Origin: Solibacillus sp. R5-41
Lineage (GTDB): Bacteria; Bacillota; Bacilli; Bacillales_A; Planococcaceae
Reading direction: 5' to 3'
Assembly (NCBI RefSeq): GCF_002736105.1
Contig: NZ_CP024123.1
Span: forward strand, 1,232,001 to 1,296,000
Length of the DNA: 64,000 nucleotides
The notes below the pieces were generated by a model. That model had not been told where the DNA came from. It saw nothing but the letters and a program-made list of their open reading frames with translations, and made no database searches. Positions 32,479 to 34,659 of the stretch are shown in pieces (the stretch's first letter is position 1; each line of letters starts with the position of its first letter). Both the position numbers and the translations under genes were made by a program.

Positions 32479-32513
32479 AAAAGTCTCGTACATCTGATGT
32501 GCGGGACTTTTTC
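32479..32513 (+). terminator. yphF terminator
   Basis: Thirteen-bp stem (AAAGTCTCGTACA / TGTGCGGGACTTT with G-U pairs) and a 5-base loop, then TT. It ends inside the -35 of the spoIVA promoter. Confidence 0.75.
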
Positions 32514-32540
32514 ATATTTAGAAAAAAGAAAACATATAGT
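32512..32540 (+). promoter_or_regulatory. sigma-E-type promoter of spoIVA
   Basis: TCATATT (32512-32518), a 14-bp spacer and CATATAGT (32533-32540). This fits the mother-cell sigma-E consensus (K-M-ATATT, 14-15 bp, CATACAnT) with one mismatch in the -10. SpoIVA is a known sigma-E gene product, which supports the call. Confidence 0.7.
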
Positions 32541-32639
32541 ATTGTTGAGAGTGCTTCAAATTTGGACATCAAACAGGTTAAGTTAATGCATCTCGATGTT
32601 CATGTAGATTGTGAAGTTTTGTAAAAGGGAGGAACTGCA

Positions 32640-34118
32640 ATTAGCGATCAAATTTTTCAGCAACTCGCGGAACGAACAAATGGCGATATTTATATTGGGG
32701 TAGTGGGTCCGGTTCGAGTAGGGAAGTCAACATTTGTTAAAAAGGTCATGGAAGGCGTTATTTTACCGAATATTACAAATGCGGAAGATCGTATGCGTGC
32801 GATGGACGAGTTACCACAAAGCTCTCCTGGACCCGTTATTATGACCTCTGAACCAAAATTTGTTCCGGCTCAGGGGACAACGGTTACAATAGGAGAAAGT
32901 GAAATGCCATTCCGCATTCGACTCGTCGATTGTGTTGGATATGTCATTGATGGTGCAAAGGGTTACCAGGATGAATCTGGACCGAAATACGTTCATACGC
33001 CATGGCATAATGAACCGATTGCATTCCAAGAAGCAGCGAAAATGGGTACCGATAAAGTCATTCGAGATCATGCGAATCTTGGGATTGTCGTGACAACGGA
33101 TGGTTCAGTAAATGGCATGAGTCGAGCAGCTGCACAAGTAGCCGAAGAGAAAATTATTGAGCAATTGACAGACATTGGCAAGCCTTTTGTTTTAGTTTTA
33201 AATAGCTCAATGCCAACCTCGAATGAAACGATCAATCTGCGCAATGCCCTAATTGAACGCTATGATGTGCCTGTAATTGCGATTTCAGTCGATAAGTTAC
33301 AACCATCAGATGTGGCGTATATTTTACAAGAAGCGTTATTTGAGTTCCCAGTAAGTCAAATCGAGGTTGAGAAGCCGGATTGGCTAGAAATATTAGATGA
33401 TCATCATGAATTAAATGAAACTTTATCATTTGCAGTGGAGCAATTGCAAGATGGATTAATGAAAATTAGAGATGTTGATTCAGCTAGTGCCATTTTACAG
33501 CAAATTGATTTTGTAGAAAAATGCAATGTCGAAAGAATGGACCCAGGAACAGGTATCGCTACGTTAAGAGTGGCGGTTGATGGGGAAACGTATAAAAGGG
33601 TTTGCCAGCAATGGTTAGAAAAGCCGGTAGACACGAAAAAAGATTGGTTATTATTTATAAAAGAAGCTGCCGAGGCAAAACAAGCTCAGAAAAGATTCCG
33701 TGAAGCGATTCAAGATGCGCGAGAGGACGGTTACGGTGTGACACTGCCAGCTATGGATGAATTTATCCCTAGTGAACCGGAATTAATTAAACAAAATAAC
33801 TTTTTCGGCGTACGTATGAAGGCAACCGCGCCATCGTATCATATTATTCGTATCGATATGGAAGCGGAATTTTCACCGCTAATTGGCTCTGAATTCCATA
33901 GCCAACATTTACTGAAGGATTTACAACATGCGTATGATCATGACCGTCAGGCTTTGTGGGAAACACAATTATTCGGTACGCCATTACATGAAGTGTTAAC
34001 AGAAAGCATTCGCTATAAAATGCAAGTTGTACCAACTAGTGCAAAAAATCGTATGCGCTTAATGATGGAACGAATGGTGAATGAAGGGGAAAAAGGTCTA
34101 ATTACGTTCATTATTTAA
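32640..34118 (+). CDS. spoIVA: stage IV sporulation protein A, apparent ATT start
   Basis: ATPase that polymerises on the forespore outer membrane as the base of the coat. Read from ATT 32640 the protein has 492 residues, the length of B. subtilis SpoIVA, and its N-terminus SDQIFQQLAERTNGDIYIGVVG aligns without gaps to the known family start. It has Walker A GPVRVGKST, LVDCVGY, the TPWHNEPIAFQEAA block and a conserved C-terminus (EGEKGLITFII). No ATG, GTG or TTG exists in frame between the stop at 32622 and GTG 32703; that GTG would delete the first beta strand. GGAGG at 32628-32632 lies 7 bases before the ATT. A sequencing error at this codon is the main alternative. Confidence 0.93.
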   Translation: MSDQIFQQLAERTNGDIYIGVVGPVRVGKSTFVKKVMEGVILPNITNAEDRMRAMDELPQSSPGPVIMTSEPKFVPAQGTTVTIGESEMPFRIRLVDCVGYVIDGAKGYQDESGPKYVHTPWHNEPIAFQEAAKMGTDKVIRDHANLGIVVTTDGSVNGMSRAAAQVAEEKIIEQLTDIGKPFVLVLNSSMPTSNETINLRNALIERYDVPVIAISVDKLQPSDVAYILQEALFEFPVSQIEVEKPDWLEILDDHHELNETLSFAVEQLQDGLMKIRDVDSASAILQQIDFVEKCNVERMDPGTGIATLRVAVDGETYKRVCQQWLEKPVDTKKDWLLFIKEAAEAKQAQKRFREAIQDAREDGYGVTLPAMDEFIPSEPELIKQNNFFGVRMKATAPSYHIIRIDMEAEFSPLIGSEFHSQHLLKDLQHAYDHDRQALWETQLFGTPLHEVLTESIRYKMQVVPTSAKNRMRLMMERMVNEGEKGLITFII

Positions 34119-34386: not shown

Positions 34387-34659
34387 GTGAATAAAACAGA
34401 ATTAGTAAACGCTGTTGCTGAAGCGGCAGGTCTTTCTAAAAAAGATGCTTCCAAAGCGGTTGAAGCTGTATTTGATACAATTCAAGATGCTCTTGCAAAG
34501 GGTGATAAAGTACAATTAATCGGTTTTGGTAACTTTGAAGTTCGTGAACGTGCGGCTCGTAAAGGTCGTAACCCACAAACTGGTATGGAAATCGAAATTG
34601 CTGCGAGCAAAGTGCCTGCTTTCAAACCAGGTAAAGCGCTTAAAGACGCTGTAAAATAA
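34387..34659 (+). CDS. hbs: DNA-binding protein HU (HBsu)
   Basis: Small histone-like protein that compacts and bends DNA. From GTG 34387 it has 90 residues, beginning [25 protein letters not shown], almost the same as B. subtilis HBsu, with the DNA-binding arm [21 protein letters not shown] and the end [15 protein letters not shown] 34387 lies 8 bases after GGAGG; the upstream in-frame GTG 34378 overlaps it. A strong GC-rich terminator follows. Neighbours spoIVA and folE match B. subtilis. Confidence 0.97.

Follow-up and report, generated by a model that had tools for sequence, protein, structure and literature searches.

A very probable ATT start codon at spoIVA of Solibacillus sp. R5-41 and its retention as ATT or ATA in related genera

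The spoIVA gene of Solibacillus sp. R5-41 very probably begins at the ATT codon at position 32640, which appears to be its sole workable start. Translation from this codon likely pairs a strong ribosome-binding site with a weak start, by which the amount of SpoIVA would be throttled. ATT or ATA is kept at the same place in several genera, which suggests that these cells may deliberately limit SpoIVA. Few start codons are rarer in bacteria than AUU and AUA. In PMC5622118, two AUU switches are given among 68,906 reconstructed ancestral starts from 36 genome triplets. Genes started by AUU or AUA are already known and spoIVA seems to be new among them as far as the literature was searched; no prior report of a non-canonical spoIVA start was found in the open-licence literature searched.

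The window, i.e. the whole stretch of DNA that was analysed, comprises 64,000 nucleotides of the Solibacillus sp. R5-41 genome (handle G000), a single contig of 4.28 Mb. Positions refer to the window unless stated otherwise. The following features were assigned around spoIVA:

32480..32512, plus strand: terminator-like hairpin with T run at the end of the upstream gene, taken from the sequence by eye
32511..32518, plus strand: sigma-E-like -35 element TTCATATT, 7/8 to the consensus
32533..32540, plus strand: sigma-E-like -10 element CATATAGT, 7/8 to the consensus, 99 bases before ATT
32622..32624, plus strand: in-frame TAA closing the spoIVA frame, with 5 codons between TAA and ATT
32627..32632, plus strand: Shine-Dalgarno sequence GGGAGG, with 7 bases between it and ATT
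32640..32642, plus strand: predicted spoIVA start codon ATT, the sole fitting in-frame start, kept as ATT/ATA in relatives
32640..34118, plus strand: spoIVA coding sequence of 492 residues and TAA, with three Pfam SpoIVA domains over cut-offs
32703..32705, plus strand: GTG, the earliest canonical codon in frame, not accepted as start; residue 22, within the strand ahead of Walker A

In the spoIVA frame the window reads TAA (32622-32624) AAG GGA GGA ACT GCA ATT (32640-32642) AGC GAT CAA ATT TTT CAG. Following the TAA, no ATG, GTG or TTG occurs in this frame until the GTG at 32703. An ATT start had been proposed in a sequence-only reading of the window, and it is borne out by the frame, the TAA, the Shine-Dalgarno sequence and the lack of a canonical codon before that GTG. 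The same reading had placed GGAGG 7 bases upstream; the Shine-Dalgarno sequence is present, and the wording needs adjustment in that 7 is the number of bases lying between GGAGG and ATT. Counted from ATT, SpoIVA has 492 residues, the length which that reading had given for the B. subtilis protein, and this length was found in 19/19 family orthologues measured. The protein matched PF09547, PF20438 and PF20439 over cut-offs (E 1.4e-93, 9.9e-45 and 2.1e-16), corresponding to SpoIVA_ATPase, SpoIVA_middle and SpoIVA_C in Pfam. The Walker A motif GPVRVGKST is intact at residues 23-31.

The two sigma-E-like elements at 32511-32540, TTCATATT and CATATAGT, are separated by a 14-base spacer and form a putative promoter. 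The leader also holds a 12-codon ATG...TAA frame (32586-32624) in the same frame as spoIVA, its end lying 15 bases ahead of ATT; both the ATG and the TAA of this frame are absent from G003, the nearest relative. No conserved leader hairpin was found at spoIVA in 27 sequences inspected by eye, the folds varying among genomes. A short GCGNAGA-like motif was often seen by eye 5' of the spoIVA Shine-Dalgarno sequence (L022, L023, L025, L026, L028, L030 and others). Its carriers were Lysinibacillus, Sporosarcina, Bhargavaea and Viridibacillus types, and by eye it was seen in none of the Solibacillus.

The start codon was read in 113 of the 197 family genomes with a SpoIVA match and, besides, in 55 named records. 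Alignments beginning past query residue 3 were to be excluded and row L144 was left out. The 168 loci kept were reduced to 132 distinct ones by the upstream 40 bases plus protein, copies from the same genome being merged only if identical. Among the 113 genomes, ATG was read in 56, TTG in 22, ATT in 20 and ATA in 15; the named records added TTG 28, ATG 16, ATT 9 and ATA 2. The 132 distinct rows comprised 60 ATG, 36 TTG and 36 ATT/ATA. A 7-base spacing after the last G of the Shine-Dalgarno sequence was found in all 36 distinct ATT/ATA genes, in 34/36 by script and in Solibacillus sp. R5-41 and G003 if GGGAGG is taken. The exact sequence AAAGGAGG occurred in 27 of these 36 genes.

Within Solibacillus (g1), 16 genomes gave ATT 14, ATA 1 (G010) and ATG 1 (G011). 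The nearest genome, G003, encodes a SpoIVA that is 96% identical and starts at ATT. Outside this genus, ATA was read in 13/13 Ureibacillus-type genomes (g11; 25 with a match) and in the sole genome of genus g15, and ATT in 4/4 Metasolibacillus-type (g18; 5 with a match) and 2/2 Viridibacillus-type genomes (g6; 3 with a match). Three named Viridibacillus records also have ATT, one of them apparently duplicating a g6 genome. The spoIVA of L101 starts with ATT too. TTG starts were found in Lysinibacillus and Bhargavaea types, and ATG starts in Sporosarcina types (the sole TTG among them being named record L078), Psychrobacillus, g12, Rummeliibacillus (g17) and g19. The non-canonical start is thus conserved in relatives, with G011 and genus g19 (ATG in its three genomes) as exceptions. 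For the codon check in sister strains that the sequence-only reading had proposed, most gave ATT/ATA; G011 has the ATG that was to count against the claim, and canonical codons stand in other genera. We read these as probable branches around a conserved ATT/ATA state and not as a correction of it.

A quick SpoIVA tree was built using IQ-TREE from 105 rows (101 family, 4 outgroup), rows more than 98.5% identical with the same start codon being merged. This tree requires no fewer than four switches from ATT/ATA to canonical codons or back, and 13 when all codon states are counted, the direction of change not being given by the method. The main ATT/ATA clade contains 30 rows (support 99), including four ATG rows: the three of g19, of which L070 is a long branch of unsure placement, and G011. 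Viridibacillus stands apart from this clade, grouping with ATG rows of Rummeliibacillus (support 92). ATT and ATA are exchanged inside the main clade, L037 lying beside L041 and L151 beside Solibacillus.

Constraint on the codon was estimated against synonymous change elsewhere in the gene. In the 13 distinct Ureibacillus-type genes, where pairs differ at fourfold sites by 0.585 on average, the start is ATA in 13/13, yet the same codon is kept in just 1/35 all-Ile columns and the third base in 7/127 conserved fourfold columns. In Solibacillus the codon is kept in 4/23 all-Ile columns and the third base in 1/112 conserved fourfold columns. Since the Ureibacillus-type ATA does not vary amid such change, the codon appears to be held, and held weak. 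By sequence comparison, the spoIVA start is shown to have been held at ATT/ATA through much synonymous change on these lineages.

SpoIVA is an ATPase that polymerises into the basement layer of the coat. ATP hydrolysis, polymerisation and SpoVM-dependent localisation are its known traits. Under the proposed throttle, the ribosome would be held by the strong Shine-Dalgarno sequence at 7-base spacing, pairing in the P site between AUU and the usual CAU initiator tRNA would be poor, and IF3 would reject many of the AUU complexes, so that SpoIVA would reach only a small fraction of the yield expected with AUG. The weak codon would in this way act as a set throttle on SpoIVA, and self-assembly into the basement layer may be the reason for limiting it. 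Such a throttle is what we infer, as we would any control of spoIVA by IF3 or rRNA methylation. Several observations count against it, i.e. the ATG in 56/113 family genomes, weak starts at the HU gene and cotE (below) and the lack of a conserved leader structure. ATG in G011 and the three g19 genomes further indicates that the weak codon is not essential.

Alternatively, ATT/ATA could be the real start without any regulatory role, having drifted in because the strong Shine-Dalgarno sequence makes the codon nearly neutral. The well-placed Shine-Dalgarno sequence in all 36 genes fits this explanation, as does the ATG of G011 and g19, which comes without visible cost. A change from ATA to ATG takes one transition, however, and should recur under drift, yet ATA is fixed in the 13 distinct Ureibacillus-type genes; moreover, most other Bacilli read also avoid ATG at spoIVA. 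We therefore regard neutral drift as unlikely.

For Bacilli outside the family, 85 spoIVA loci were chosen to cover genera from 147 class genomes with a match. The start was GTG in 61, TTG in 15, ATG in 8 and CTT in 1, i.e. GTG or TTG in 76/85; the CTT row is L300, where a TTG lies three codons earlier. Across Bacilli, spoIVA thus appears to bear differing weak codons: mostly GTG/TTG outside the family, and within it TTG in Lysinibacillus and Bhargavaea types or ATT/ATA in the genes described here.

Genes other than spoIVA were read as controls. An HU gene adjoining spoIVA was found in 37/45 loci outside the family and started with ATG in 26, GTG in 6 and TTG in 5. In Solibacillus, the HU gene downstream of spoIVA (start 34387-34389 in the window) has GTG in 16/16. 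For cotE in 15 genomes outside the family, 13 of which have a non-ATG spoIVA, ATG 11, TTG 2 and GTG 2 were obtained by script, and ATG 13, ATG or GTG 1 (L415) and GTG 1 (L431) by eye; the difference arose because the nearest-codon rule of the script chose inner codons. In 15 family genomes the script gave GTG 6, TTG 5, ATG 1 and none 3, and reading by eye gave GTG 6, TTG 4, CTG 4 and ATG 1. The family loci read by eye, which avoid ATG in all but one case, were:

L418-L424, L426-L428, L430 and L432-L435: cotE loci of the family

Since HU has GTG in Solibacillus and family cotE avoids ATG, having a weak start does not by itself distinguish spoIVA in these genomes. Two other genes were not used as controls. 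The SpoVID profile was over its cut-off in just 2/30 genomes. SpoIIIAA (TIGR02858) was over its cut-off in 15/15 non-family Bacilli and in 0/15 family genomes, which makes it unfit; its loss in Planococcaceae has been reported before (PMC7924749).

That the true start lies elsewhere, at GTG 32703 or at an upstream or out-of-frame codon with frameshifting, is very unlikely. GTG 32703 was rejected because a protein begun there would lack one helix, the greater part of a strand and seven invariant columns (R12, T13, G15, D16, Y18, G20 and V21; columns invariant before residue 22 in 23 sequences). The helix (2-13) and the strand (17-24, just ahead of the Walker A loop) were taken from an AlphaFold model of moderate confidence only (mean pLDDT 75.3, pTM 0.57). 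SpoIVA_ATPase starts at residue 4 counted from ATT, and with GTG 32703 as start its match would lack the first 22 of the 237 profile positions. The claim that the conserved SpoIVA N-terminus is encoded 5' of this GTG thereby holds. Gene callers limited to ATG/GTG/TTG would clip SpoIVA at GTG 32703, with loss of part of the ATPase fold.

An upstream in-frame start was rejected as well. In some relatives an in-frame TTG lies upstream with no intervening stop, which would favour it, but such frames are unconserved and in the window the frame is closed by TAA 32622. Frameshifting from an out-of-frame start gains some credit from a MerR gene of the same genome with an out-of-frame start codon (below); against it, no conserved candidate was found among the 36 distinct ATT/ATA genes. 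In 30/36, the stretch from the Shine-Dalgarno sequence to the codon after the start is free of ATG, GTG, TTG and CTG in every frame. Over this stretch, an out-of-frame CTG is present in L041 and as the only such codon in Solibacillus sp. R5-41, and an out-of-frame GTG in L040 and L042. An in-frame GTG directly precedes the ATT/ATA codon in L037 and in L043, the latter also with an out-of-frame ATG. In genomes G010 (ATA) and G013 (ATT, also with an out-of-frame ATG), such a GTG, 4 bases from the Shine-Dalgarno sequence, could be the start. ATT is thus the sole usable start in the window, and the case of G010 and G013 is ambiguous.

A changed initiation machinery, i.e. a variant IF3 or initiator tRNA that makes AUU/AUA ordinary in these genera, is highly improbable. 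It would agree with infC also starting at ATT; infC, however, starts at ATT in 30/30 genomes examined, including those where spoIVA has ATG or TTG (two Bhargavaea-type genomes were read by eye from the flank). In Solibacillus sp. R5-41 both infC and spoIVA begin with ATT AGC, and the likeness to infC drawn in the sequence-only reading is apt. IF3 was present in 30/30 genomes, and no change tracking the spoIVA codon was seen in its alignment by eye, G011 (ATG) and G013 (ATT) being alike. Of 18 full-length matches to initiator-type tRNAs in seven genomes, seven were scanned and all carried the anticodon CAT (three in G000, two in G025 and one each in G020 and G032).

The reach of such starts was estimated by a scan of 400 kb of G000 against 400 kb of the sister genome G014, which left 241 gene pairs once shadow frames were removed. 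The scan covers about 9% of the genome and is blind to non-canonical starts with a canonical codon soon after, as in infC with ATG at codon 5. In 28/241 pairs, six or more aligned residues lay ahead of the first canonical start in each of the two genomes. Just two exceeded 20 residues, namely spoIVA (26) and the MerR gene (32), which argues against altered initiation in general and places the spoIVA case above chance. The next value was 14, and many of the remaining 26 pairs (all at most 14) look by eye like a conserved Shine-Dalgarno sequence and leader in frame.

A sequencing error or strain mutation from ATG to ATT in this one genome, which had been put forward earlier and would accord with the expected rarity of AUG to AUU changes (1 of 61,358 ancestral AUG starts in PMC5622118), is ruled out for practical purposes by ATT in 13 further Solibacillus genomes, the nearest being G003, and by ATT/ATA in four further genera.

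The throttle reading was compared with known systems. In infC, IF3 judges its own start codon, which results in autoregulation. Like spoIVA, infC has an AUU start behind a strong Shine-Dalgarno sequence in the same genome; unlike spoIVA, it encodes the codon-judging factor, whereas SpoIVA, a structural ATPase of sporulation, has no such means of feedback. The E. coli chromosomal gene pcnB is reportedly limited in translation by an AUU start, and differs from spoIVA in lineage and function. S. aureus ccpN (AUA) and cvfC1 (AUU) resemble spoIVA in a conserved non-canonical start with an extended Shine-Dalgarno sequence, as described in PMC13009471. There, output from the AUU/AUA starts of cvfC1, ccpN and citZ was about 10% of that from AUG in poor medium, rising for ccpN to as much as 30% in rich medium. 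ccpN is a repressor of gluconeogenesis and cvfC1 a small protein, whereas spoIVA is a mother-cell developmental gene with a codon that differs between genera. B. subtilis sigG (GTG) is, like spoIVA, a sporulation gene with a weak start as partial damper; it is non-ATG in 11/15 representative Bacilli, and its change to ATG raised expression just 1.3-fold (PMC5942855). It differs as a forespore sigma factor that uses GTG/TTG only and has a hairpin over the ribosome-binding site. With the AUU/AUA-limited genes spoIVA shares the sole usable start, the strong and well-spaced Shine-Dalgarno sequence and the conservation in relatives. What sets spoIVA apart is its structural role in development, the spread of the start over five genera and the recurrent switching of its weak codon. 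One locus thereby offers a natural codon series of GTG, TTG, ATG, ATT and ATA in which start strength may be related to dose in a self-assembling shell.

A bolder extension, which we consider improbable, is that AUU/AUA makes spoIVA a developmental sensor. Its output would be set by IF3, itself made from an AUU start, and by RsmH/RsmI methylation of 16S C1402, coupling coat nucleation to the state of the mother-cell ribosome, with cotE and others in the same weak-start set; cotE has GTG, TTG or CTG in 14/15 family genomes (CTG in 4, by eye). A readout of ribosome methylation by the AUU of spoIVA is speculation. According to PMC13317604, E. coli without RsmH or RsmI shows more AUU mis-initiation and impaired GUG/UUG initiation (cited there), and deletion of mraW (rsmH) in B. 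subtilis suppresses several spoIVA mutants via CmpA. This suppression makes start-codon sensitivity of spoIVA of interest. Loss of RsmH was rejected since the protein is present in 30/30 genomes; in G017 it is split into two pieces, and one of these contains an inner TGA. In 30 genomes (29 of the family), rsmH starts with ATG in 22, TTG in 5, GTG in 1 and ATT in 1, and is unreadable in 1. The ATT at the rsmH start position was read in L272 (G211, Sporosarcina type).

The second gene that stood out in the scan and the loci surveyed for it were as follows:

G000:C1:1217962-1218360, minus strand: MerR-family regulator gene, about 14 kb before the window
L355-L371, L377-L382 and L384-L405: MerR loci surveyed

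A literature search yielded nothing plainly on an off-frame MerR start. The MerR frame may be reached by a programmed -1 shift or by re-initiation at an AUA/AUU codon. The 45 genes surveyed comprise 16 from Solibacillus and 29 from elsewhere in the class, and 44/45 have an NTG, with GG after it, shifted by one base from the MerR frame. In 26/44 no in-frame ATG, GTG or TTG occurs within 13 codons before the RIGEL motif. The off-frame NTG opens a mini-ORF of 3-13 codons in 39/44, often with an SD-like sequence ahead of it as seen by eye.
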